Source of the DNA: Gordonia sp. SID5947
GTDB lineage: Bacteria > Actinomycetota > Actinomycetes > Mycobacteriales > Mycobacteriaceae
Assembly: GCF_009862785.1 (NCBI RefSeq)
Contig: NZ_WWHU01000001.1
Location: forward strand, 806,001-870,000
DNA: 64,000 bases
Direction of reading: 5' to 3'
Positions 7,115-25,001 of the stretch are shown in pieces. The notes under the pieces are model-generated. The model did not search any database. It saw only the letters and a program-made list of their open reading frames with translations, and was not told where the DNA came from. Within the stretch, counting starts at the first letter, position 1; each line of letters opens with the position of its first letter. The translations under genes were made by a program, and so were the position numbers.

Positions 7115-7390
7115 GGGACGACGCTACTCGCGCATTACGCACCGAGTGGCAGACGACGCACCGACAGGCCACGAATCGGCGAGAATAGACCGGGATTTCA
7201 TCTCGTGGACCCACAGCTCCCGTGAGAAGCCGGTGCTAGCGCGGTCAGATGGTCCGCTTGGCCGAAGGAGTGGCCACTCTGATGCAGCCGATGCAAAATG
7301 CAGGAGTCTACTTGACATAATGTATCTTATCGGCATGAGAAGGGCGAGTAGAAACCGCCCGAGTGTGGCCGTCTTCGCGGACCTTTGTCC

Positions 7391-7470
7391 GATCCCAAAC
7401 ATGTTGAGAGTAATCCAGGAAAACATGAGAGCTGTCCGACATTCGACCTGAATCCACGAGAACCTGAGAG
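7391..7470 (+). repeat. Three imperfect 20-bp direct repeats, possible IS-end remnant
   Basis: AATCCAGGAAAACATGAGAG (7412-7431) and AATCCACGAGAACCTGAGAG (7451-7470) match at 17 of 20 positions. A weaker copy at 7391-7410 matches at about 12 of 20. Repeated short motifs of this kind occur inside the ends of some insertion sequences (for example the IS21 group). No transposase gene is present, so this is a possible remnant. Confidence 0.45.
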
Positions 7471-7618
7471 CGATCAGACGCCTGTGCCACTTCACGTGTA
7501 GATATGGCGCTGACGCTGCTGCGGTCGACGCGCAGCGCCTCGCGCCCGTCTCTTGCGATTTGATCGCTGGCGCCCATAGTGTCCATGCCCGCATTCGGCC
7601 TCGGTGCGCGCCACAAAG

Positions 7619-7631
7619 TGTCACAGTGACA
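7619..7631. promoter_or_regulatory. Palindrome TGTCAC-A-GTGACA
   Basis: A perfect 6-bp inverted repeat with a one-base spacer, about 80 nt before the truncated SDR. It is operator-like in size and symmetry; the cognate regulator is unknown. Confidence 0.35.
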
Positions 7632-7711
7632 AATTGATATAGGGTGGATGAACCCACAAATCTGCGGGTCAGGAGTCATTTTCTGCCCTCAAGCCGAATG
7701 AGTTCCCGGGA

Positions 7712-8085
7712 ATGCCTGACAACCTGCTGCCGCGTATGAGCGGACCTGACTATGCAGCGTCAAAAGCTGCCGTCCTGTCGTTCACCACGTCACTCGCGAA
7801 ATTTGAAGGCCCACACATCCGGGTCAACGCCATCGCCGCCGGCGCCACCGTGTCGCCGATGTGGTCCATGCAAGGCGGCCTCGCCGACACCTTCGCCGGC
7901 ATCCACGGAGTCCCCGCGAGGAATCGATCGAAGCAGAAATGAAGGCCCGCAATCTTCCCCTAGCCCGCATCGGGACGCCCGAGGAGGTCGCCAACGTCGT
8001 CATGTTCCTCGCTTCAGACCTCGCCTCCTACGTCACCTCGAACGTTTACGGCGTCGACGGCGGCTCCATCGGCAACATCGTGTGA
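7712..8085 (+). pseudogene. 5'-truncated and frameshifted SDR oxidoreductase remnant
   Basis: Only the C-terminal half of a short-chain dehydrogenase is present. It starts at the catalytic YAASK motif and runs through [14 protein letters not shown], then, in another frame, [19 protein letters not shown] and the terminal GVDGGS. The Rossmann nucleotide-binding half (TGxxxGxG, NNAG) is absent upstream. One frameshift lies at the C-run 7912-7915; one extra C there would join the halves. The missing N-terminus makes it a true remnant even if the frameshift is a sequencing error. Confidence 0.75.
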
Positions 8086-8947
8086 CCGCAGACACCAAAC
8101 GGCGATTAGCTCCTGGCTGTGGCCCGGTATGCCCGGTCATTCTCAGGCTGTCGGATGACATTACAGTTGGGAGTTTCGCCGGAGCAGCTCGATCGGTGTC
8201 GCGGGGTGTGAGAATTGCTGGGTTGGGAGGCATCAATTCGGTTGGGTGACAGACGATGTGGGAGTTGCCCTCCTACTTCGTGAGGTCAGTGGGTGCGTTG
8301 TCCTTCGCTTCCCCAGGTTGTTGTCACCGGATCTCGGCTCGGCGGCAAAGCCTCAGATGTGGTGTCATCCGACGCCGACGCCGACGACCCGGGCCTGCCG
8401 ATCGACCTTCCCCCGCCGAACTGACCTTTTGTCGTAAAGTACGTTACCTGTGCAGAACATGTTGCTGCGCAATACATTGTGTCGCCGACGACGAGATGTT
8501 CGACGTGAGGTTGACGACATGCCAGACGCCGACTTTCCCCGCGCATATGCTCCCGGATGAGTATTCGTCCACCGATGGAATGCTTTGGAGATGGGGCTGG
8601 GCTCGGCGAATCCGATGCTGGGCCGCCAGCGGCATTTTTCGACCCTTTCGGACTCAAGCTCGAGTGCGAGTCCAGATTCAACCCCCGCTCACATACCTGT
8701 CCACCATCACGACCGTGACCGAGAGTCCACTGGCTGGTCTCCGCGGGATCGATGCCCGACCCTGCAACATGCGGGTCGGGCATCGGGCGTAACCATTGCG
8801 AGATAGATTGTCAGACAAACTGTCAACACAGTTCCGGCAGCCCATTCCCCAGGGCGTGCCCACTGAAATGGTGACCGAAAACATTCGCTGCCCGTGTCAT
8901 GCCTTGCCCGGAACGGGTGGAACGAGTCGCTGCCGGCGTCCGCGTTG
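8086..8947. other. Gene-poor intergenic region
   Basis: About 860 nt between the SDR remnant and the zinc-ribbon gene. Frames up to 178 codons exist on both strands but show no conserved motif and unusual composition. Two operator-like inverted repeats occur at 8808-8833. Nothing else is supported. Confidence 0.5.
8808..8833. promoter_or_regulatory. Two overlapping palindromes, GntR/FadR-type operator-like
   Basis: TTGTC-A-GACAA (8808-8818) is a perfect palindrome fitting the TNGTNNNACNA pattern of FadR-subfamily GntR regulators. It overlaps a second inverted repeat AACTGT-caac-ACAGTT (8818-8833). No start codon of a convincing gene follows, so this may be the orphaned promoter of a lost gene. 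Confidence 0.4.
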
Positions 8948-9190
8948 TCACCCTTCAGCACAGACGCACCCCGGACAACGAATGCGGTCACCGCGAACCG
9001 CCCATCCATTGGTGGCCGCAAAAGCGATGGCTGCATGATGATCCGGGACTGCTTTGACCACCAGCGGCCGATCGCAATGATCACATTTTGAGATCCAGGT
9101 GTAGGGACGATCGGTATGCGCGCCGGCGGCAGCCGGTGACGGAAGTTGAGTACTGTATGTCCCGGCCACGTTGTCCTCACCCATTCTCAT
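8948..9190 (-). CDS. Small zinc-ribbon protein
   Basis: An 80-residue protein ending in a compact four-cysteine ribbon: CDHC, then about 28 residues with the typical AIAFAATNGWAVRGDRIRC pattern, then CPGC. Such small ribbons are widespread in actinobacteria, often called rubredoxin-like or zinc-finger proteins, with unknown function. The N-terminal 35 residues are poorly ordered in appearance, so a start internal to ATG 9190 is possible. It lies 26 nt downstream of the SDR at 9217-9963 in the same direction, so the two probably form an operon. Confidence 0.6.
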   Translation of the reverse strand: MRMGEDNVAGTYSTQLPSPAAAGAHTDRPYTWISKCDHCDRPLVVKAVPDHHAAIAFAATNGWAVRGDRIRCPGCVCAEG

Positions 9191-14093: not shown

Positions 14094-15611
14094 TCAAGGC
14101 CTGTGCGCCGGCGACGTCGGCGCGCCCCGGCGCGCGGCCGTATCCATCTCCGCGCAGATACCCTCCGCGCTGCGGGCGGCCGCCTTGCAGACGCGGGTGG
14201 TGAAGGCGTCGTTGAGCGGGTGGTCGGCGCGCGCACGCCATCGTTGTACCGCGCCGAGGGCGCGCGATCGCCCAGACGTCATGGTCTCGAAAGGATCCAA
14301 ACCGAGGCGATCGTCGGCGGACGTCCCATATCCCCCGATGAGACGAGTCGCGTCGAGTGCCTCACTCTCCGTGAGAGTTGACCGTCGCGAACGCAACAGT
14401 CCCAGCAGGCGTACTTCTTCGAATCCATGCACATCCCCCATCAGCCGCTGTGCGGCGTTCCGGAGGTGCTGGGCGGCCGGGTTCGGGTACGCGGAGAGGA
14501 TCCGCGACAGCTCGGTCAGTGCGGAGTGCGCCTTCAACTGCTCGGCGCGCTGGCCGAACTGAACGTCGACGATGGACTGCAGCTCGGTGAGCCCACTTCG
14601 CTCAAGAAGTTGATCGGCGAGAGTCGTCGCATCGCGCACACCGCCTTGGATGAGGACGACGGCAATGCGGATGCCGAACAACCCGAACCGCCGAACGAGT
14701 GTCAACCGCGTCTCCTGGTCGAGCGACAGAGGACTCTGTTCGCGTCCGAAGCGGTCGACCGACAGCATGGCCAACTGCAGATCCTCTGGCGTCGCAGACG
14801 CCAGCGACGACAGCGCCGCGAACTCTCGCTGGCGTAGTGTCCGCGCCGTCAGTGCCAGCAGGCCGGCCACCGGCACGACAGCCTGGCACAGACCGGAAGC
14901 CGTCAGGTCGGTTGCGTACTGCGCGGCAATCTCCTTCGCCGAGAGCATCGCATCGAACCGGCCAGAGCCGATTTCATCTGCCCGTGACAAGACTCCCACC
15001 ACACCGAGTGGTCCGCCCCGACCGCCGACCTGCCGATTCAGTTCCGCCAGCGTGGAGACGTCCGATGCGGTGGAGGTTCGCATCAGATACACCACGGCGT
15101 CGGCCCCCGACACACCGTCCGCCGGCGCCAGCAGGCGCATTGTCCGAGCGGAGACGTCCGCGTTCAGTGACGCCGTCCCCGGAGTGTCGATGATGGTGCG
15201 CCTCGACAGTTCGGTGGTCGGCCACGATACTTCGAGGCGGTCGATGGCTGCGGGCTCCAGAGCGTCGATGTCGAAGTTCAGGCAACCGTCTCGACGCTCG
15301 ATCGGGACCGCGGCGCTCTGGCCGTTGACGTGGTGTGCCCGCACCGACGGTGACGATCCGTGATGAAACCAGGTGACGATCTTGGTGCACTCGGTGGCGT
15401 CGGTAGGAGCGAGTTCTTCGCCGATCAGCGCGTTCAGCAATGTCGACTTCCCTGCCTTCAACGCGCCCGCCAACGCGATTCGCAGAGGTTCTGACAGGCG
15501 TTGTGCACACCGTTCGAGGTCTGCCGATGGCCCAGCGGCGCACGGCTCGTCCGACCGGTATACGGCGATGGCGTCGTCGAGCAGGCGACGCACCTCATCC
15601 GACGTGTTCAC
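14094..15611 (-). CDS. iniC: IniC-like dynamin-family GTPase
   Basis: A 505-residue bacterial dynamin-like protein closely patterned on Mycobacterium tuberculosis IniC (about 493 aa): EPLRIALAGALKAGKSTLLN (Walker A, residues 49-57), APTDATECTKIVTWF (switch I), IIDTPGTASL (G3, residues 142-145), SRADEIG (G4-like), and AVVPVAGLLALTARTLRQ. IniC is part of the isoniazid-inducible membrane-remodelling system. Its ATG at 15611 lies inside the end of iniA (17-nt overlap), indicating coupled expression. It is last of a five-gene leftward operon. Confidence 0.93.
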   Translation of the reverse strand: MNTSDEVRRLLDDAIAVYRSDEPCAAGPSADLERCAQRLSEPLRIALAGALKAGKSTLLNALIGEELAPTDATECTKIVTWFHHGSSPSVRAHHVNGQSAAVPIERRDGCLNFDIDALEPAAIDRLEVSWPTTELSRRTIIDTPGTASLNADVSARTMRLLAPADGVSGADAVVYLMRTSTASDVSTLAELNRQVGGRGGPLGVVGVLSRADEIGSGRFDAMLSAKEIAAQYATDLTASGLCQAVVPVAGLLALTARTLRQREFAALSSLASATPEDLQLAMLSVDRFGREQSPLSLDQETRLTLVRRFGLFGIRIAVVLIQGGVRDATTLADQLLERSGLTELQSIVDVQFGQRAEQLKAHSALTELSRILSAYPNPAAQHLRNAAQRLMGDVHGFEEVRLLGLLRSRRSTLTESEALDATRLIGGYGTSADDRLGLDPFETMTSGRSRALGAVQRWRARADHPLNDAFTTRVCKAAARSAEGICAEMDTAARRGAPTSPAHRP

Positions 15612-17448
15612 GGGTACCTCCTGCGGCCCACGCCGACACCTCTGTCAGGAATGTGAGACTCGTTTCCAGGCTGCGCATCCGGGCGTCGCGTTCGGCGACC
15701 TGCATGCGCGCACCTTCTTCGGCGGACTTGATGGATTCGGTCAATGACCGCGTGGTCTGTTCGGCGATCTCCCGAAAGTGATCCCGCAGCACCCGCTGGA
15801 TGGTGCGCAGGCGATACCGTGATTCCCGGCCGACCTCGAAGAGAACATCGTCGACAAATGTGCGGACGGCCGCCTTGGCCTCGGAGCGGCGCCGGGTGAG
15901 GCGCATCTCTGCGTCCTCCTTGTAGGACTTGCGCCCCAACAGAACGCCGGCGGCCACCGAGAACGGGTTGAGCATCGTCATGCCGATCATCGTCGACATC
16001 ATGCCGAACATCATCATGCCCCCATATGACCCGCGCATGCCGGTGACGACCTTGTGCACGACACCGGTCGGCTGTTGCTCGAGGTCGGTGAGTCCGGTCA
16101 GTGGCGAGATCTCGTGACCGATCGCAGCCAGATCCAGCCGGGGTATGGCAACATCACCCGCGTCCGAAAAGGACTCGGCCACCCGTTCGGCCACCGCGAG
16201 GGACTGCTCGTGCGTCCAGATGAAGTTGTCTCCGACAGCTTCGGCGATGTCGTTCTTCAGATCCTCGCCCAGCTGGGCCCAGAACTTGGCTGGGTCACCC
16301 GCATCGATCCGCGCCTCGTAGTCCTTGAGCAACTTCCGTGTCCGGTACCGCAAGTCGTGGTCGGATTCGGCAGACAGATCGGCGATGCCATCGCCGAGAA
16401 CCTGCTGCCAGAGCGCGGTGCGCGACGACAACTCTTTGGCTTCACCGCGAGCACGTTCGAGTTCCGCGACGATTGCCGCGCGCGCATTCGGGTCCTTGAG
16501 GGTATCCAGTTCGGGCCGAATCGCCAGCGACAGATGATCGGTGACCGACCGGATCTCGTTCATCACGACCCGCTGCATGGTGGTACTCGCCTGCGTCAGG
16601 ACCCGGTTCTCCAGGAAGTCGAGGATGCCGGGAAACCCGGACTCGTCGTTGAGTTCACGGTCGTTGAGCCGGATGGCATGCGAGCGCAACAACGACGAGA
16701 CCGGCAAGGGATCGCGTTCGATGCCCTGTCGACGAAGATGCGCGACATCGGCACCTACGATGTCGCGCCACATCGGGTACAGGTCGGTCTTGGTCGCCAC
16801 ACACAGCGCGTTGTCACACAGTTCGGTGGCCTGGCGGATGAAGGACATCTCCGGTGCCGTGTACTCCTGACTCACGTCGGAAACCACGATGATCGCGTCG
16901 GATGCGGCGAGCAGCCCCAGAGTGGCTGCGGCGTGCGGCGATCCGACGCCCCCGGAACCTGGCGTGTCGACCAGGACGATACCGCGCTGCAGCAATGGGC
17001 TGGGCACGAAGATCTCGAGCCGCAGGACCTGTTCGCCGGCCGCCTCGGGGGCGTGCGACAGATCGCGCGAGATATCGTCCATCTGGATCGGGATGGTGCG
17101 CTCCCCTGCCGTCTGCACCGGGGCTTCCTCTGCGCCAGGAGATTCCACGATGCCTGACGAGTCGCTGACAACCAGCCGAGCATGCGGCTCCTCCCCGTAA
17201 CCGATCGTGGTGATCGTCGAGGTCGTCTCCCCGTCGCCCACTCGACACACAGGGACGTTCAGCAACGCATTGATGAGCTGACTCTTGCCCTGTTTGAGCT
17301 GACCGACCACCACCACGCGCGCGCTGGGGTCCATCACACGCCGGCTCGCGGATGCCATTCGGCTCCGCAGGTCCTCTCGTCCGGCATCACGTGCGAGGTT
17401 GCTCAATCGGTCGATGATCTGGCAGACCTTGGAGGTGTTGGCGTCCAT
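15595..17448 (-). CDS. iniA: IniA-like dynamin-family GTPase
   Basis: A 617-residue dynamin-like GTPase matching mycobacterial IniA: GQLKQGKSQLIN (P-loop, residues 49-57), VLVDTPGSGGVG (residues 159-168), ATKTDLYPMW, a long helical neck and stalk, and a hydrophobic membrane paddle with RGSYGGMMMFGMM and LNPFSVAAGVLLGRKSYKED. Mycobacterial IniA folds membranes and contributes to tolerance of cell-wall drugs. ATG 17448 is chosen because GGGAG lies about 8 nt upstream; GTG 17496 would add 16 unconserved residues. Confidence 0.93.
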   Translation of the reverse strand: MDANTSKVCQIIDRLSNLARDAGREDLRSRMASASRRVMDPSARVVVVGQLKQGKSQLINALLNVPVCRVGDGETTSTITTIGYGEEPHARLVVSDSSGIVESPGAEEAPVQTAGERTIPIQMDDISRDLSHAPEAAGEQVLRLEIFVPSPLLQRGIVLVDTPGSGGVGSPHAAATLGLLAASDAIIVVSDVSQEYTAPEMSFIRQATELCDNALCVATKTDLYPMWRDIVGADVAHLRRQGIERDPLPVSSLLRSHAIRLNDRELNDESGFPGILDFLENRVLTQASTTMQRVVMNEIRSVTDHLSLAIRPELDTLKDPNARAAIVAELERARGEAKELSSRTALWQQVLGDGIADLSAESDHDLRYRTRKLLKDYEARIDAGDPAKFWAQLGEDLKNDIAEAVGDNFIWTHEQSLAVAERVAESFSDAGDVAIPRLDLAAIGHEISPLTGLTDLEQQPTGVVHKVVTGMRGSYGGMMMFGMMSTMIGMTMLNPFSVAAGVLLGRKSYKEDAEMRLTRRRSEAKAAVRTFVDDVLFEVGRESRYRLRTIQRVLRDHFREIAEQTTRSLTESIKSAEEGARMQVAERDARMRSLETSLTFLTEVSAWAAGGTREHVG

Positions 17449-17567
17449 GGCGATCTCCCATACGTCGGGTGTGGACATGAGGGGCGGTGCGCTCACAACG
17501 TCCTCGCGGCCACTCGTCCGGCGTTGCCGAAGTCGGAGTAGCCGCGAGGGACGCTCGTCACCGGCGG

Positions 17568-18287
17568 TCAGAAGATGTCGTCGAACGCATCGCCGATCGC
17601 GTCCGCGACGTCTCCGGCGGCGCCGCCGAGGGCACCGGCGGCTCCTCCGTAGGCGGCACCGATCCCGCCGGCCACCCCACCGATCAGGTCGCCCGGATCC
17701 GGCAGTTGCAGACCGGATTCGGAGTTGGTGTTCGACACGTCGTGCGAATCCTGGTTGTAGGAGTCGTTGGTGGAGTTGTCATCGTGCGAGTCGTAGCTGC
17801 GCTGATCGTTGAACGAATCGTGAATGTCGTGACGATCATGCGTCTCGGTGTAGTGATTGCTGTTGTCGCTGGTGATTCCTCCGCGCTCGTAACCCAGGTT
17901 GATGTGGTCGAGTGAGATCCCCCCGCCGTCGCCGCCGGGGCCACCGTCTCCCCCACCGGCCCAGAATCCCTGTTGGCCACCAGCTCCACCGGCGCCACCG
18001 TCCCCGGCATCGCCGACGTTGAGCGTGTTGTGGCTGTCGTTGGTGCTGTTGTCTTCGATGTGGGTGTTCTGGGTGTTTCCGCTGTTGTTGCCGTGCACCG
18101 ATTGGTCGACGTTGGTGGTGTCGTTGTCGAAGGTGTTGCCCACGACATTCCCGTCGCCGGCGACTCCCCCGGTGGTCGCGATGTTGCCGGTCGAGTCGCC
18201 GCCGATCGCCACCGATCCTGTACCCGAGGAGGTGGTCGAGCTGTCGACATTGGTGGTCTGGGCGCCTGCGGTCCATTGGTTCGTCAT
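17568..18287 (-). CDS. IniB-like Asn/Asp/Gly-rich low-complexity protein
   Basis: A 239-residue protein with extreme composition (Asn, Asp, Gly, Ser, Thr). It carries GSVAIGGD, ATTGG and NDTTNVDQSVHGNNSGNT, also present in altered form in the neighbour at 18470-19618, followed by a Gly run, a His/Asp/Asn-rich segment (NDSYNQDSHD) and a hydrophobic Gly/Ala tail (GGVAGGIGAAYGGAAGALGG). It lacks the conserved N-terminal IniB helix domain. There is no signal peptide. A repetitive beta structure is plausible. It occupies the iniB position before iniA. Confidence 0.75.
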   Translation of the reverse strand: MTNQWTAGAQTTNVDSSTTSSGTGSVAIGGDSTGNIATTGGVAGDGNVVGNTFDNDTTNVDQSVHGNNSGNTQNTHIEDNSTNDSHNTLNVGDAGDGGAGGAGGQQGFWAGGGDGGPGGDGGGISLDHINLGYERGGITSDNSNHYTETHDRHDIHDSFNDQRSYDSHDDNSTNDSYNQDSHDVSNTNSESGLQLPDPGDLIGGVAGGIGAAYGGAAGALGGAAGDVADAIGDAFDDIF

Positions 18288-18469
18288 CGTCTTGTCCTTG
18301 TCTGATCGAATTACCCTGGGTGGGTTGATGTGTCGGGATGGTCGGGTGTTCGGTTGGTCGTTTCGGGAGTGTCGTAGACGCTAGGCGTCGCATCGTGCTG
18401 GGAGAAACGGGGTTGGCCCCCTCTCGTGTTCGCCGTTCGACGGGGGTGTCGCGCCCCGCCCCCCAAGGG

Positions 18470-19618
18470 TCAGGCACCGTCGGCGACACCGTCTGCGATG
18501 ACGGCATCGCTCATCGTCGGTGCCACGGAGATGCCAGGATCGGAAACGTATGTGGTGCCGGCACTGTCGTAGTCAGGCACGTCGTGTGCGGGATCCGGAA
18601 GGAAGGAGGTGTCCGTCGCCCCGCCGGCACCGGAGCCGACGTCGAACGCCTCGCCGTAGCCGACGTGGTCCGTCGCCGGATCGGCCAGAGGGTCGTCCGG
18701 CATGATCGACGTCGCGGGATCGATCGGTTCATCGATACCGACGGTTGAATCGGGAACGGTGTCGTGATGCGACGTCAGGTCCTCACTTGTCATCGTCACC
18801 GGACGTGCGGCGTCGGTTGTCGGTTCGGCGTCGCCCACCAGCGTCTGCGGGACCCGGCTGAACGGCTCGATGTGCTGCAATCCCTCGAGATCGCCACCGG
18901 CAGCGACCGCGAGAGTCGCAGGCATCGGGTCGAGCGCGATCGCCGCCGGATGAAATGGGCCAGAGGCAGACGCCGCGACAGTCGGAGCCGTTGTTGCCGG
19001 GCCCGCCGGCGTGGTTCCGGCGGACGTGCCGCCCTGCCCGCCGCCGGCGGCAGATTTCACGTCGACCGAGTCGTGACTGTCGTTGTGCGAGTTGTCTAGT
19101 ACCTCGGCGGCAGATGTGTTTCCGCTGCCGTCGCCGTGCACAGACTTGTCGACATCGGTGGTGTCGTTGTCCTCGGTGTTGTGCGTCTTGTTGTTCTCAC
19201 CTGCGGTGCCCCCGGTGGTCGCGACGTCCCCGTGGTTGTCGCCGCCGATGGCGACGGATCCATCGCCGGTGGCATTGGTCTGGCGAGCGTCGAGATGGTT
19301 GTTGTCGCCGATGATGGTGTTGAACTGCTGGTAGTAGTTGTTCGTGATGTTCTGGATGATGCCGGCAGCGCTGCCGTGGCTGGGAATCTGCGGTTCCCAG
19401 TGACCACCACCGCCGCCATTGGGCGCCGGAACGGTCTGTGCCACCTCGTGCACCGCCTGTCGCACCTCCTGCGGCGTGACGTCCTTCAACCCGGCGTCGG
19501 CCAGGCACTTCCCCGAATTCTCGTTGAATGCCTCCGCTTTGGCCTGATCGCCGAAGAGGCCGAGAATGAACTGGACGAGCGCGTTGCGTTCCTCGTCGAT
19601 CGTGTCGCGTTGTGGCAT
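18470..19618 (-). CDS. iniB: IniB-like protein with conserved N-terminal helical domain
   Basis: A 382-residue protein. The first 50 residues form the IniB-type domain (LVQFILGLFGDQAKAEAF, then CLADAGLKDVTPQEVRQAV), similar in spacing to M. tuberculosis IniB. The middle has a YQQFNTIIGDNNH stretch and the repeat module with GSVAIGGD, ATTGG and DTTDVDKSVHGDGSGNT; the tail is Pro/Asp/Thr-rich. ATG 19618 has a strong AGGAG 7 nt upstream, so longer starts are rejected. No signal peptide. The IniB function is unknown in any organism; the assignment rests on domain and synteny. Confidence 0.78.
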   Translation of the reverse strand: MPQRDTIDEERNALVQFILGLFGDQAKAEAFNENSGKCLADAGLKDVTPQEVRQAVHEVAQTVPAPNGGGGGHWEPQIPSHGSAAGIIQNITNNYYQQFNTIIGDNNHLDARQTNATGDGSVAIGGDNHGDVATTGGTAGENNKTHNTEDNDTTDVDKSVHGDGSGNTSAAEVLDNSHNDSHDSVDVKSAAGGGQGGTSAGTTPAGPATTAPTVAASASGPFHPAAIALDPMPATLAVAAGGDLEGLQHIEPFSRVPQTLVGDAEPTTDAARPVTMTSEDLTSHHDTVPDSTVGIDEPIDPATSIMPDDPLADPATDHVGYGEAFDVGSGAGGATDTSFLPDPAHDVPDYDSAGTTYVSDPGISVAPTMSDAVIADGVADGA

Positions 19619-19822
19619 CTCGCATCTCCTAGGGGCCGGCCTCCTTTCGTGGAGGCATGCCAGCAACGCTAGATCGATGAGAGCTCAACCCAAACGGGGA
19701 ACGGCCCCGTCGTCGCGGTGAGCGTATGGGGCTTCCGATCGGGGGTCGGTGATGCCTGCAGGGGATGCGGCGGATGAGATCAGACGCCTTTCGGTGGCCG
19801 CGCCGCGGGGCGACTCCCCGAA

Positions 19823-20356
19823 TCAAAGCGGGTCGATCGAATGGTCGACGGGGTCCGGCACGGACCACTCCGCGACGGGGTGCTCAGGAACGGGGTGCTC
19901 AGGAACGGCGTCGGGGGTGGTCATCAGTGCGGTGAGGTACGGGTCAGACGCTCCGGTCGGGGTGAGATCGAGATCCGACCCGAGATCGTATTCGTCTTCC
20001 GCGCAATTGAATGCGGCACCGTCGTACGGAGCGTGCTGAGCGCACGGTGCCGGCGGGGTCTCGTGGTCCATTCCCGGCTCTGGGAACGGAACTGACGGGA
20101 TCGGGGTGTCTTGACCGCCCACGGCGTCGAACGCGAACAATGCCTCACTGCCACGCCACACATTGTCGTCGACGGCTGCGAGTCCTCCGGCGTCCGTGCC
20201 GCCCGCCATCGGTATCAGTGCAGAGATGTCCGAGGCTGACACGTCGTGCAGGTCCGCATCCCGGAGTGCCCGTGCCGGGTCCGCCGCGTAGGCGGCGGCC
20301 ACTTCGGGATCATGGGCGAGAGCAGTGACGAACTCGAGAAACGTCGATCGGGGCAC
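19823..20356 (-). CDS. Short IniB-like protein, first gene of the ini operon
   Basis: A 177-residue acidic protein. Its N-terminus (FLEFVTALAHDPEVAAAY, then ALRDADLHDVSASDISALI) parallels the N-terminal domain of the neighbour at 18470-19618, and the remainder is a Pro/Asp-rich low-complexity tail with a tandem PEHPVPEHPV. GTG 20356 is set by the strong ribosome site AGGAGG at 5-nt spacing. It is transcribed away from the Hsp70-like gene across a 426-nt shared promoter region. Only the N-terminal domain is conserved. Confidence 0.72.
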   Translation of the reverse strand: MPRSTFLEFVTALAHDPEVAAAYAADPARALRDADLHDVSASDISALIPMAGGTDAGGLAAVDDNVWRGSEALFAFDAVGGQDTPIPSVPFPEPGMDHETPPAPCAQHAPYDGAAFNCAEDEYDLGSDLDLTPTGASDPYLTALMTTPDAVPEHPVPEHPVAEWSVPDPVDHSIDPL

Positions 20357-20782
20357 GCGTTCCTCCTTCTCGATCCGGCGGCATGCGATGCCCACATCCG
20401 CCGGCCTGTTCGGTGCGAACCTTGGCCGTCTCGGCATCGGGCATCGAAACAGTTTGTGGCACAGCTTCTGTCACCACACACGGTGGCCGATCGTGCTTCC
20501 GATGCTATCCGCAGGACGTTCCGCTTCGTACGGGGTTCTGCCCGCATGCGCCCAGGGGGAATCGGGGGTCGGATCGTGTGGCGGGGCGCGAGGGCACGGG
20601 GCATACACCCGACTTCCGTGTCGAAAACCGAGTAGGTCATCGGGGATCCCCATGCCGGATTGTCTGACTTGAGTAGTGCGCTACTCGCGACCCCCAGGTC
20701 GTTCGGCATTTCAATGGTGCACAGAGGTGACCACAGACGCGATCACCCTCAATACCACGACTCGCACCCCGAGGGGGCTCCG
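20357..20782. promoter_or_regulatory. Divergent ini/hsp70-like control region
   Basis: 426 nt without a convincing gene, serving both the leftward ini operon and the rightward hsp70-like/iniR-like operon. It contains a 10-bp palindrome GGGGATCCCC (20642-20651) and an inverted repeat GAGTAG-tgcg-CTACTC (20671-20686). Both are candidate binding sites for the LuxR-type regulator encoded downstream. In mycobacteria iniBAC is governed by Lsr2 and IniR; that link here is inference. Confidence 0.5.
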
Positions 20783-22600
20783 ATGGCGACCGCACTCGGA
20801 ATAACGCTTGGCAGCCGATTCCTGCACGCCGCAACTTTCCCGGCGGGCGAACCCTGCCTACAGCGCTCCGCATCCGTGACCGTCGATGCGACGCACAACT
20901 CGGGCCGGCCGACGGAATGCGGTACTGCAGAAGAGAACCCTCGAGTTGCGGCCGGTGGGTTGACGATCACGGGTTTCGTGGACCGGGTGGGTGACCCGGT
21001 GCCGATCGCGGGACCGGACGGTCTGGGACGGCCCGCCGAAGTGCTCACCGCCGCGGCGATCAAGAGTATTGCGGCGGCCACGGCCGATCGGTTTCCGTCC
21101 GCTCCGCCGATGGTGGTCGGGTATCCGGCCGCGTGGTCGTCCCACCAGAGGACGGTTCTGGACGCGGCATGTCGCGATGCCGGGCTCCCGTCGGACCTGC
21201 GATCGGAAACGGACGTTGTGTGCGCGTTGGCGCGTCTCCGCGAGCTCGAGGACTACCCGAAGGCCGGATTGCTCGCGATCGCCGACCTCGGAGCGTCGGG
21301 GACCACCGTCGCCGTGGTCGATGCCGTCGACGGCACGACGGTCGGCGACGCGGTCCGTATCGAGGAGCCGGCCGGCAACGATCTCGACCACGCGGTGATG
21401 CGATACGTCCTCGGCGAGACGATCGATGACCCGACGGTCATGGTCGCAGCTGATCCGAATCTCACATCGGCCCTCACGATCCTCCGTCGGCGGTGCGTCG
21501 CTGCCAAGGAAGAGCTCTCGCGGTCGACAGTTGCGGTGGTAGACGTCGACCTCCCTGTCTACCGCGGTGGTGTCCGGATCACGCGGACCGAGCTCGAAGA
21601 CCTTCTGGTGCCTTCGCTCGGTCGGCCTCCTTCGGCGATCAGGGAGATCCTGGCGCGCGCGGGGCGGTCGACGTCCGAACTCACCGCGCTGGCCGCCATC
21701 GGTGGAGGCGCGTCGGTAGGACTGACCACGCAACACCTGTCCGGCGAGTTTCACCTCCCGATACTGGTCGACGAAGATCCGGCGACCTCGGCGGCGCGCG
21801 GGGCTGCCATGCTGGCGGCAACACGGGCCCGGCCGGTGGTCGCCCCGGTCGCCTCGGTCGGGTGGGTCGGTACGGCGGCGTCCCCGACCGCGACCTCGGC
21901 TGAACCGGATTCCGACCCGTCGCCGACGGGACCGCGCCCCGGGCGGGCGGGTGCCACCTCGAAGCCCACGGCATCATCTGATCCGTCGTCCGCCAGGTCG
22001 GTCCTCGACGACGGGCCCGACAGCCGAGTCCCCGAGACCGGCGCCGATTCCGCAATGTCCGGTCCTGTGCTGCGCTTCGCCGACGATGCGCCGCACGCAG
22101 CACCTGACGAGGACCCTTCGCCACCGAAGACACGGCGACGGGCCGCCATCATCGTGGGGGCGGCGGTCGCTCTGGTGGTGACGGTCGGTGGTTCGGCGCT
22201 TGCGATGTCCGGCGGGGACAACCCGACCACGCCCACCGAAGCGCCGACATCGGTCACGACGACCGAGACCCCGACGTCAGCTCCTGACGTCGAGAACGGG
22301 GTGACGGACGAGCCGCCAGTCGTCACCCAACCGGAGGAGACGGCACAGCAGAGCACCCCGGAGGTACCGATTCCCGAGGTGCCGTCCGAGATCAGCACGC
22401 CGCAGGTCGGTTCAGGTGGCACCGATGCGGGAAACAACGGTGGCACCGACTCAGGAACTGGCAGCGGCACCGGCACGGGAACGGGCAGCGGCACCGATTC
22501 GGGAAACAGCGGTGGCGCCGGCACCGATGATGGCGCCGGTTCCGGCGGTGGCACCGATCCGAACGTGAGAACGGGCAATGGGACCGATGCCGCAGAGTGA
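20783..22600 (+). CDS. Membrane-anchored Hsp70/actin-fold protein
   Basis: A 605-residue protein with three parts. The N-terminal actin/Hsp70 nucleotide-binding fold has a phosphate-2-like loop (IADLGASGTTVAVVD), a connect-1 motif (SSHQRTVLDAACRDAGL) and an adenosine loop (AAIGGGASVGL). A Pro/Ser linker leads to one transmembrane helix (about residues 454-478, AAIIVGAAVALVVTVGG). The last 120 residues are Thr/Pro- then Gly/Thr/Ser/Asp-rich repeats outside the membrane. The phosphate-1 aspartate of DnaK is replaced (GITLGSRF), and no substrate-binding domain exists. ATG 20783 follows GAGGGGG. Confidence 0.82.
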   Translation: MATALGITLGSRFLHAATFPAGEPCLQRSASVTVDATHNSGRPTECGTAEENPRVAAGGLTITGFVDRVGDPVPIAGPDGLGRPAEVLTAAAIKSIAAATADRFPSAPPMVVGYPAAWSSHQRTVLDAACRDAGLPSDLRSETDVVCALARLRELEDYPKAGLLAIADLGASGTTVAVVDAVDGTTVGDAVRIEEPAGNDLDHAVMRYVLGETIDDPTVMVAADPNLTSALTILRRRCVAAKEELSRSTVAVVDVDLPVYRGGVRITRTELEDLLVPSLGRPPSAIREILARAGRSTSELTALAAIGGGASVGLTTQHLSGEFHLPILVDEDPATSAARGAAMLAATRARPVVAPVASVGWVGTAASPTATSAEPDSDPSPTGPRPGRAGATSKPTASSDPSSARSVLDDGPDSRVPETGADSAMSGPVLRFADDAPHAAPDEDPSPPKTRRRAAIIVGAAVALVVTVGGSALAMSGGDNPTTPTEAPTSVTTTETPTSAPDVENGVTDEPPVVTQPEETAQQSTPEVPIPEVPSEISTPQVGSGGTDAGNNGGTDSGTGSGTGTGTGSGTDSGNSGGAGTDDGAGSGGGTDPNVRTGNGTDAAE

Positions 22601-25001
22601 TCGACCGCGGTCGGCCGGCACATCGTCACGCGAGGTGCTGTGCCAATCGATCGTGGTGCCGCTGATCTCCGAATCCCGGCGACCGGCGACGCGACTCATC
22701 ATCGGACTGTCCGGTTCCGGTAAGACCCGCCTGCTGCACGCGGTGGGGAACCGACTGTGTGAGCACGGGTTCACAGTCGTAGCCGGATTACGTTGCACGG
22801 AAACAGATGTCGACGTGCTGCTGATAGACGACCTCGATCAGCTCGGGGACGCTGACCTTGATGCCCTCACCGAGCTGGTGTATCAGGGGACGCACATCGT
22901 GATCGCCGCGACCCGCCCCCGGCGGCGCCGTTCCCGACTCCAATCCACGATCGGAGCACTCACCCGCGAAGCCCCGGCCGTGCGGCTCGGTGCGCTGTCC
23001 CATGGCGAGATCGCGGACCTGGTGGTCCAGCACGCCGATCCCGCACTCTCCCCGCACGTCCATGAGCTCACCGCCGGAGTTTCGTGCCTCGTCGACGCAG
23101 CGGTCGCGTCGCTGGCGGCCGGTCCCGACGGTGCGCTCCCGGATGCGGCTGTCGTCCGTGAGATTCGCGAGCGACTCGGCACCTGCACCGAAACCGAGCT
23201 CACGGTCATGGCGTTGATGACTCTCGGTGTCGACGTGGGCACCACCGACGTCGCCGAGGTGCTGGATCTGGATTTCGATCGAGCCGCCGAAGTCCTCGAT
23301 GTGGTTCGATGCCACGGCCTTCTGGATGGCGGTGACCTTCTCACCGCAGAGGTACACCGCCAGGCCATCGCCACCCTCGGCCGCCGTCGAACCGCCCAGG
23401 TCGAGCGTTCACTCGAAGAACTCTGGCGTCGCAACGGCGGCATCACGACACACCTGTCAGCGAAGCTGTCCGCTGACGGCGTGGAACGGTCCGTCGATGC
23501 ACGCCTGGACGAGGTCGCCGAGCTCATCCGCGCCGGTACCCTGACCGGCGTCGGCGGTCTTCTCGACGCGCTGTGGCCGATGGTCGATGACAGACAACGT
23601 GTGCGGGCCACCGATCTGGCGGCGGTGACAGCGCAGCTGAACGGCCATGCCGAGCGCGCCGCCTGCCTCACGCAATGGTCCTCAGACCACACATCGCCCG
23701 ATGCCATCGGCAGCGCGACCCGAGCGCGATGGGCCGTGATCGCGGCCGCCGGTGGCGATCTGCGGGATCTGGGCGAGTTCGCCGACCCCGGTCTCGCAGG
23801 CATCGGTCCGCAGACGTCGGCGACCGTGGAAGTGATGGTTGCGCGGGGGCTGGCGTCGTCGATGTTCGGGTCCTCCCCCGCTGCCCTGCACACACTCATC
23901 CGAGCTGCCGGCATCGACCGTGAGTGCGCGGCCACCCGCATCTGCGCCGACACGGCGGCGGCCACCGCCGCACTCCTCGCCGTGCACACAGGAAATCTGA
24001 AGAGGGCGCGAACCGTCTTGTCTCGCGCTCCGGTCGCCGATCTTCCGACGTACCACAGCCGGCGGCACCAGATCTTGCTGATCTGGGTGGCCTTGTTCGA
24101 AGGTGACGTGGAAGGTGCCGCCTCGGAGCTCGACGCGCTCGTCGAGACGTCCGGCCAGTCGGTCGTCCGGCCACCCCGTGATGCACTCGCGTTGGCGGCA
24201 CTTCGGGTGGCGATCGCCCGCCGACGCGGAGATGAGGCGGTCATCCTCTCCGTCTTGCCAGAAGCGATCGACGTGCTGGGCGAATACACGGTGGATGTCT
24301 TCGGCCTCTTGTTCGTGGGTGAGATACGGATGGCCGCTGCGCAGGTCGGGTGGTCGGACAGGATCGCCACCACGGTCGGCGACGTCGCGCGCCTGATCGG
24401 TCAGCTCGGTCCCTCGTCGCAGTGGTCGGTGATCGCGCACTGGCACGGCGTTCACGCCGCCATCAACGCGAACGCACCGACCGACGTCGTTCCGGCCGCA
24501 CATGCCTTGGCCGACGCTGGGAGGACGAATCCGTACGCGGCGGTACTCGCCCGGGCCGGCAGGGTGTGGGTCGAAGTACTCGGAGGCGATGTCGACATCG
24601 AGCGAGTTTCTTCTGCGACAAGAGAACTCGAGGCAAACGGACACATCTGGGACGCCGCGCGGCTGGCGGGACAGGCGGCCCTGTCTGCGTCGGACACCCG
24701 GACCAGCGGGGCGATGCTCCAGCTTGCGCGGTCACATCGCGTCCACTCCGCGGCCACGAGCGCGGCGACGCCGGTGCAGGTGAGATCAGCGGTCGCCGTG
24801 CTCAGCGAACGCGAACGCGAGGTCGCGAACCTGCTGTTGTCGGGGATCACCTACCGGGATATAGGCGAACGCCTCTTCATCTCGGCGAAGACGGTTGAGC
24901 ATCACGCCGCCCGTATCCGACGCCGTATCGGCGCCGACACGCGCTCCGAGATGTTGACGATGCTGCGGGCGATGCACCTCGGACAGGATCTCGCGGTGTG
25001 A
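22578..25001 (+). CDS. IniR/MalT-like STAND-type ATPase with LuxR DNA-binding domain
   Basis: An 807-residue regulator. Residues 43-50 form Walker A (GLSGSGKT), residues 78-89 Walker B (VDVLLIDDLDQL), followed by a winged-helix region, a long helical TPR-like sensor domain and a C-terminal LuxR helix-turn-helix (LSEREREVANLLLSGITYRDIGERLF is the recognition block, given here in part). The size and architecture match mycobacterial IniR (Rv0339c, about 830 aa), reported to respond to trehalose. The start overlaps the last 23 nt of the Hsp70-like gene, indicating coupling. Regulation of the adjacent ini operon is inferred. Confidence 0.85.
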   Translation: MGPMPQSDRPRSAGTSSREVLCQSIVVPLISESRRPATRLIIGLSGSGKTRLLHAVGNRLCEHGFTVVAGLRCTETDVDVLLIDDLDQLGDADLDALTELVYQGTHIVIAATRPRRRRSRLQSTIGALTREAPAVRLGALSHGEIADLVVQHADPALSPHVHELTAGVSCLVDAAVASLAAGPDGALPDAAVVREIRERLGTCTETELTVMALMTLGVDVGTTDVAEVLDLDFDRAAEVLDVVRCHGLLDGGDLLTAEVHRQAIATLGRRRTAQVERSLEELWRRNGGITTHLSAKLSADGVERSVDARLDEVAELIRAGTLTGVGGLLDALWPMVDDRQRVRATDLAAVTAQLNGHAERAACLTQWSSDHTSPDAIGSATRARWAVIAAAGGDLRDLGEFADPGLAGIGPQTSATVEVMVARGLASSMFGSSPAALHTLIRAAGIDRECAATRICADTAAATAALLAVHTGNLKRARTVLSRAPVADLPTYHSRRHQILLIWVALFEGDVEGAASELDALVETSGQSVVRPPRDALALAALRVAIARRRGDEAVILSVLPEAIDVLGEYTVDVFGLLFVGEIRMAAAQVGWSDRIATTVGDVARLIGQLGPSSQWSVIAHWHGVHAAINANAPTDVVPAAHALADAGRTNPYAAVLARAGRVWVEVLGGDVDIERVSSATRELEANGHIWDAARLAGQAALSASDTRTSGAMLQLARSHRVHSAATSAATPVQVRSAVAVLSEREREVANLLLSGITYRDIGERLFISAKTVEHHAARIRRRIGADTRSEMLTMLRAMHLGQDLAV

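Follow-up and report, generated by a model that had tools for sequence, protein, structure and literature searches.

Genes for a predicted membrane-anchored pseudo-Hsp70 accompany IniR-type regulators at most dynamin-encoding Ini loci of Mycobacteriaceae

The iniBAC operon is a classical reporter of wall-active drugs. We analysed a related locus of Gordonia sp. SID5947 in a 64,000-nt stretch of contig NZ_WWHU01000001.1 (positions 806,001 to 870,000), here called the window, whose first letter is position 1. At positions 14094 to 25001 an operon for two dynamin-like GTPases and IniB-like proteins runs leftward from a shared control region, and a gene for a predicted membrane protein with an Hsp70 fold, here labelled HspR, runs rightward together with a gene for an IniR-like regulator:

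14094..15611, minus strand: iniC-like dynamin GTPase (P0003); Dynamin_N 46.8 bits (Pfam), IniC profile neighbours in relatives
15595..17496, minus strand: iniA-like dynamin GTPase (P0004), overlapping iniC; Dynamin_N 64.7 bits (Pfam)
17568..18287, minus strand: IniB-like repeat gene (P0005) without the IniB N-terminal domain; repeats in common with P0006
18470..19666, minus strand: iniB-like gene (P0006); IniB_NTERM NF038175 47.9 bits, above the cut-off of 40
19823..20356, minus strand: iniB*/Rv0340-like gene (P0007); IniB_NTERM 49.1 bits, above the cut-off
20357..20782, no strand: shared divergent control region, 426 nt, at the same position as the tandem-TTAGGGG regions of relatives
20783..22600, plus strand: membrane pseudo-Hsp70 of 605 residues (HspR); HSP70 domain (Pfam)
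22578..25001, plus strand: IniR-like STAND regulator (P0002); NOD, MalT-domain-III-like repeat superhelix, LuxR-type helix-turn-helix (HTH)

All gene positions and strands given in an earlier note on this DNA were reproduced, as was its 426-nt control region, given an HspR start at the ATG at 20783 and an iniB* (P0007) start at the GTG at 20356, which is the likely one. The open frames of both genes extend beyond these starts, that of iniB* as far as 20437, but the point at which the conserved domains start speaks for the 426-nt spacing. The HspR stop (22600) overlaps the regulator ATG (22578) by 23 nt and, with the Pfam HSP70 match and the LuxR-type HTH, this bears out the note's description of an Hsp70-fold membrane gene overlapping a STAND-LuxR regulator. 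The locus shares with iniBAC the arrangement of an IniA/IniC dynamin pair in one operon with IniB-type genes ahead of iniA, two of the three exceeding the IniB_NTERM cut-off. The note had counted three IniB-like proteins, which is right for P0006 and P0007 and not for P0005, whose likeness lies in repeats only and which has no family match in Pfam or NCBIfam. P0007, which adjoins the control region, is the closest of the three to Rv0340/iniB*, although its 62.8 bits against Rv0340_fam fall under the cut-off of 100. The note had also given M. tuberculosis a single IniB, which is incorrect, a small iniB*-like gene being described there besides iniB (PMC5760070).

The regulator is MalT-like in fold, and the P-loop NOD, the repeat superhelix and the LuxR-type HTH of MalT-type STAND proteins are all present. 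It is IniR-like, short of the IniR equivalog criterion: it reaches 463 bits against the NCBIfam IniR model, below the curated cut-off of 750, a threshold exceeded in no more than 6 of the family's 151 surveyed genomes, all of genus g29. Its HTH differs little between the window's lineage and other lineages. In two g22 genomes (L095 and L100) a second, shorter IniR-like gene directly follows iniR, and its match leaves out the middle of the model. As reported in PMC5760070, iniBAC is activated by IniR, which responds to trehalose. That system and the window locus have in common the IniA/IniC pair, the IniB and iniB* genes and a divergent IniR-type STAND activator; the window locus departs from it in a pseudo-Hsp70 gene that separates the regulator from the control region, in its three IniB-like genes, in a regulator under the NCBIfam IniR cut-off and in a degenerate form of the upstream sequence box described below. 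A dnaK-like gene near iniR of M. smegmatis, 'directly downstream of iniR', was already noted in 2017 (Boot 2017, PMC5760070), and the open-access texts on iniBAC, IniR and IniA/IniC that we covered (including PMC6715688 and PMC13413693; subscription papers lie mostly outside this set) yielded nothing further on such an Hsp70-like gene.

Three segments can be told apart in HspR:

20783..21832, plus strand: nucleotide-binding fold of Hsp70 type (residues 1-350), with other residues in place of the catalytic Asp and Lys
22148..22204, plus strand: single membrane helix, residues 456-474; hydropathy 2.31, model helix 450-474, basic residues before it
22205..22597, plus strand: predicted outer tail of 131 residues, rich in Thr, Pro, Gly and Ser; low model confidence

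The window protein thus has the nucleotide-binding fold of the Hsp70 family with both the phosphate-1 Asp and Lys70 replaced. Among 155 HspR copies, a count in which named and other genomes overlap, the Asp is retained in one (L118; gaps in two rows) and the Lys in none (gaps in three); in a smaller set of relatives the Asp is retained in 1 of 78 and the Lys again in none. D194 is kept in 153 of the 155, the adenosine-motif Gly in all and S274 in 152. Both catalytic residues are present in 15 of 15 true DnaK proteins and in 6 of 6 Hsp70 proteins of a second type of dynamin locus, discussed below. The sole IniR-linked copy with the phosphate-1 Asp (L118 in genome G163, 7239-9056) has a relative, L119, with Glu. 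A membrane helix was found in 105 of 107 HspR proteins, and in 104 of these it is immediately preceded by two or more basic residues. The earlier note had called the product a nucleotide-binding protein, which the largely kept pocket supports, but the catalytic Asp and Lys have been lost. Taken together, HspR in Mycobacteriaceae is best described as a predicted membrane-anchored pseudo-ATPase that retains a nucleotide pocket and has lost its catalytic residues.

HspR shares with Hsp70/DnaK the nucleotide-binding fold and most of the pocket, and differs in lacking a substrate-binding domain and the catalytic Asp and Lys and in having gained a transmembrane helix and an outer tail. That it is a true Hsp70 acting as an ordinary chaperone, helping IniR or the dynamins to fold, is very improbable: the model contains no peptide-binding domain (beyond residue ~355 it is of low confidence, with no fold except one helix), the protein has a predicted membrane anchor, across the 155 copies the catalytic Asp is lost in all but one and the Lys in all that are readable, and the tree separates DnaK from HspR (L118 lay outside the tree). 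Genes for GTPases linked to proteins with an Hsp70 domain minus the peptide-binding domain have been described in actinobacteria (PMC7159879); those differ in being presented as conflict systems, some with tubulin homologs, and the word 'dynamin' occurs nowhere in the text of that paper that we covered. PADLOC gives little sign of a defence system, having returned only weak, partial matches to Leo-type and other systems; with the LeoABC dynamins the window locus shares a distant dynamin similarity, but it has no Leo gene set.

The pairing of HspR with IniR is a regular feature of the family. Among the 151 genomes, IniR was called in 80 (NCBIfam IniR model, E ≤ 1e-30) and iniA relatives occur in 85 (E ≤ 1e-20). 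With purpose-built profiles we mapped 119 IniR loci, of which 112 had at least 2.6 kb upstream and were assessable and 7 were dropped; the adjacency count leaves out G167 (a fragment, L131), L132 and the Gordonia loci L061-L076, which had been picked via Hsp70 matches. For the mycobacterial genus 98 genomes were searched, 69 had IniR, 6 + 40 neighbourhoods were taken in and 23 left out. In 106 of the 112 loci HspR immediately precedes iniR in the same orientation, and the other six (L040, L130, L168, L171, L173 and L174) have it elsewhere in the examined stretch. IniA is divergent upstream of IniR in 103 of 112; of the nine without a near divergent IniA, three are at contig ends, five have IniA ~8-18 kb off on the same contig and one (L130) has it co-oriented. 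Of nine apparent HspR misses among the loci mapped first, those at L040 and L130 stood and seven were rejected on profile recheck, four as stop-to-stop frame artefacts (L051, L054, L123 and L124), one as a contig edge (L091) and two as second IniR copies (L095 and L100); several Hsp70 matches near ini loci proved to be true dnaK and were set apart.

At cross-table thresholds of E ≤ 1e-70 for the HspR A1 profile and E ≤ 1e-90 for IniA, IniR, HspR and IniA are all present in 75 genomes and all absent from 63; IniR and IniA occur without HspR in five, HspR alone in four and IniA alone in four. The five comprise three contig edges, one fragment and G050, which has a divergent HspR beside IniR (L106). 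In genera g1, g9, g23 and g27 the three are present or absent together, contig-edge cases aside, and in g22 HspR tracks IniR with a diverged IniA copy present throughout. Because joint presence and absence recur inside genera, the shared ancestry of whole genera fails to explain the pattern. The Fisher value for this table takes no account of relatedness among the genomes and is therefore no measure of probability. In an order-level sample of 200 genomes there were 60 IniR-like matches, 18 inside the family and 42 in genomes outside it; in the latter IniA is divergent upstream of IniR in 38 of 42 and HspR above threshold directly upstream in 19 of 42, and an HspR-like frame was found in all three of the gaps examined where no HspR exceeded the threshold. 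The co-occurrence of the Hsp70-like/regulator pair with ini genes, the lack of which would have refuted the earlier note's proposal, therefore holds in most genomes with IniR.

These counts bear on the view that HspR is one of a broader family of wall-associated pseudo-Hsp70 proteins (Rv0312/MSMEG_0692-like), has hitch-hiked into this position by ancestry and has no role in Ini. Three mycobacterial genomes (G106, G159 and G170) carry HspR paralogs with neither IniR nor IniA, as such a family might; the fourth genome with HspR alone, G053, is 66% complete. MSMEG_0692/Rv0312 is reported to be Pro/Thr-rich with one transmembrane helix and to be part of the FhaA interactome (PMC11898655), which would suit a wall-associated family if it belongs to this one. 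Set against this are the co-occurrence of HspR with IniR over 151 genomes, their repeated joint absence inside genera and a linkage that several families of the order retain, so that we regard hitch-hiking as improbable. Rv0312 and Rv2264c may be HspR paralogs. Extra pseudo-Hsp70 copies in mycobacteria (L037, L038, L137 and others) lie directly past iniR or past iniC, some with a tandem TTAGGGG box of their own. Outside Mycobacterium, 14 of 68 loci (L098, L103, L117 and L126 among them) have true dnaK within the examined stretch, and the ini locus and dnaK are therefore chromosomal neighbours in several genera. Four g22 genomes have a diverged IniA without IniR, and in L177 (G061) a diverged IniA-like gene, with no IniR or Hsp70 beside it, stands between lepA and a GH15/trehalase-like gene.

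The divergent regions of relatives share a sequence box. Motif discovery on 83 non-redundant regions of 111, near-duplicates having been removed, yielded ATCCCCTAA[TC]G with a log-likelihood of 559, compared with 55-60 in three mononucleotide shuffles run with fewer seeds, and a posterior above 0.5 in 79 of the 83. Read in reverse this is an [AT]TAGGGG unit, mostly in 2-3 copies of one orientation with commonest spacings of 15, 18 and 17 nt. Strict tandem pairs occur in 72 of the 111 regions (92 pairs) versus two pairs elsewhere in 2.17 Mb of these loci. Across the 151 genomes a fixed box pattern gave 53 matches, of which 34 lie in the ini divergent region of 26 genomes (80 having IniR), 3 immediately ahead of an additional Hsp70-like gene that follows iniR and 16 elsewhere; a reversed control pattern gave about 103 (hand-summed). 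The tandem TTAGGGG box is a good candidate for the IniR operator. The text of the IniR paper that we covered (PMC5760070) does not contain the letters of the box, which may still have been reported elsewhere. A short array of TTAGGGG units ~15 nt apart also occurs at G139:C1:1262637-1262703, in a genome without IniR. In the window control region, where no sigma-70-like promoter or terminator was found in the 426 nt, two degenerate variants are present:

20558..20570, plus strand: degenerate box variant with an ATCGGGG core; position weight matrix score 4.0, under the 7.6 that marks the 95% level in shuffled sequence
20636..20648, plus strand: second degenerate box variant, ATCGGGGAT; position weight matrix score 2.3

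Two forward AT[AC]GGGG copies in this region have a P of 0.008, which is post hoc, and they are not significant by the matrix.

The window locus itself is a variant. Among the mapped loci three IniB-like genes are found only here, in L061 and L062 of the same genus and in L043 of g10, and a P0005-type gene is likewise confined to these four among the loci examined. In the IniA tree they form a clade (support 1.0) that lies beside Mycobacterium and apart from the remaining copies of Gordonia and g10. A second, ordinary Gordonia locus accompanies L061 and L062 in their genomes (L073 and L065, respectively), so that each of these two Gordonia genomes has ini loci from two lineages, both with an Hsp70-IniR pair. 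The simplest reading is that the window locus belongs to a variant lineage that has spread horizontally; its base composition (64-68% G+C versus 59-68% over the window) is unremarkable and therefore argues neither for nor against horizontal gain. The convergent MFS transporter gene past the regulator and the convergent GDSL lipase-like gene past iniC indicate that the ini set is bounded. The earlier note had spoken of an expanded Ini system, which applies to the extra IniB-like gene, special to this lineage of four loci, and not to the Hsp70-like gene, whose presence is normal for the family.

The Ini locus of most lineages carrying it has three parts: a divergent iniA/iniC pair behind iniB-type genes, a STAND activator (IniR), and HspR just upstream of, and often overlapping, iniR. 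Sequence shows the arrangement, the co-occurrence, the loss of the catalytic residues from an otherwise largely kept pocket, the predicted topology and the box in relatives. Our preferred reading, tentative and possible rather than probable, is that the window carries a variant of this ordinary three-part Mycobacteriales envelope-stress locus and that the pseudo-Hsp70 restrains IniR at the membrane. At rest, the cytoplasmic pseudo-nucleotide-binding domain of HspR would hold IniR at the membrane, much as idle MalK is reported to anchor MalT there (PMC10427625). Either the wall-embedded tail would report envelope damage or the state of the bound nucleotide would change, and IniR would be released; freed IniR would assemble with ATP and turn on both operons, after which newly made HspR would reset the switch while the dynamins repair or reshape the membrane. 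It is the gene pairing that suggests such sequestration. The Ini locus and the E. coli MalT-MalK/MalY/Aes system (PMC10427625) have in common a STAND activator built of NOD, repeat superhelix and LuxR-type HTH, whose counterpart here is a membrane protein of nucleotide-binding fold. They differ in that the MalT partner is an ABC transporter ATPase, not an Hsp70-fold pseudo-ATPase, with no dynamins involved, and that contact between the partners at the Ini locus is a proposal. Repeated boxes with a GGGGA core are a further feature of both.

Several observations weigh against the restraint of IniR by HspR. Among the matches listed there were at least 80 named mycobacterial loci, 10 ending too near iniR and 70 judgeable; HspR is directly upstream of iniR in 48 of the 70, including the judgeable loci named Mycolicibacterium, and in 22 iniR faces iniB* directly with no HspR between. 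These 22, which include M. asiaticum, szulgai, persicum, gastri, gordonae, simiae, genavense, sherrisii, ostraviense and scrofulaceum and which we take from taxonomy to belong to the slow-grower clade, keep iniR and iniA all the same. Among the same listed matches, 66 of 69 named loci have a tandem pair in the divergent region, as do 21 of 22 of those lacking HspR beside iniR; additional pairs stand between iniB* and iniB, or separate iniR from a second Hsp70-like gene. Absence of HspR from this site probably extends to M. marinum and M. tuberculosis, in which IniR is known to function; M. tuberculosis was outside the loci compared, its state being taken from PMC5760070, where the iniR/iniB* neighbourhood of M. 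smegmatis is worded as for M. tuberculosis. In addition, all 9 genomes of the mycobacterial genus g29 have HspR-type proteins whereas 6 have IniR, the excess being due to the paralogs of G106, G159 and G170. Distance-matrix coevolution over 90 loci (HspR partial r of 0.32 with IniR, 0.32 with IniA and 0.43 with IniC) does not single out IniR as the partner of HspR. The strict tandem TTAGGGG box has no match in the window's genome, and another regulator, MtrA, is reported to bind regulatory sequence of iniB (PMC2945938), so that IniR is not necessarily the protein that acts at the box. Finally, Hsp70-like genes also accompany dynamin pairs where there is no IniR, as at the second locus of this genome. 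Because almost every other assessable locus of the family has HspR next to IniR, as do loci of other families, its absence from this place in slow growers is best read as derived, by apparent loss or relocation, and several of them have a related HspR copy ~8-9 kb off, past iniC where mapped (L040, L168, L171, L173 and L174). Having lost HspR at this position, slow growers would rely on IniR's own sensing of a metabolite, trehalose.

At the second dynamin locus (L036, G000:C1:4160001-4180000, at 4.8-15 kb) the dynamin pair is followed by genes for a membrane Hsp70 whose catalytic motifs are intact, for a repeat protein and for an ABC exporter with an FHA domain, and a DUF7373 gene runs divergently. 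Similar sets occur in five other genomes of the genus (L069, L071, L075, L076 and L133, the last without a strong exporter match). At ~13.2-13.3 kb of L036 the iniA-like gene is apparently out of frame near the P-loop, through a sequencing error or a real break. These IniR-free sets invite a different role for the pseudo-Hsp70, that of a membrane scaffold whose cytoplasmic nucleotide-binding fold recruits or orders IniA and IniC at damaged membrane while IniR is merely on the same transcript. The additional HspR copies found in mycobacteria shortly beyond iniC or iniR, certain of which have a tandem box themselves, fit a scaffold as well, as does the highest partial correlation falling on IniC. 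However, HspR is co-oriented with and adjoins iniR rather than iniA/iniC in 106 of 112 loci, slow growers have iniA and iniC yet no HspR at this position, and the Hsp70 of the second locus may act differently because its catalytic residues are kept. We consider the scaffold doubtful but plausible, and, given the slow-grower state, the coevolution result and the IniR-free second locus, a dynamin adaptor is nearly as likely as restraint of IniR.

Restraint of IniR by HspR has a bolder form, which we think unlikely: the pseudo-Hsp70 would be a transmembrane sensor that reads the wall via its tail while holding IniR, ancestral to the Ini loci of Mycobacteriaceae and lost by slow growers, leaving their IniR dependent on cytosolic trehalose. 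If so, the circuit described by signalling work on M. marinum and M. tuberculosis would be a reduced one. It would be unusual in bacteria for a catalytically dead Hsp70 fold to serve as a signalling or scaffolding part, and the tandem box offers a ready marker of the regulon. The pseudo-ATPase beside the activator is a candidate for the input that would tell cytoplasmic IniR of damage to the outer envelope, found in most genera with IniR yet missing from that position in slow-growing mycobacteria.

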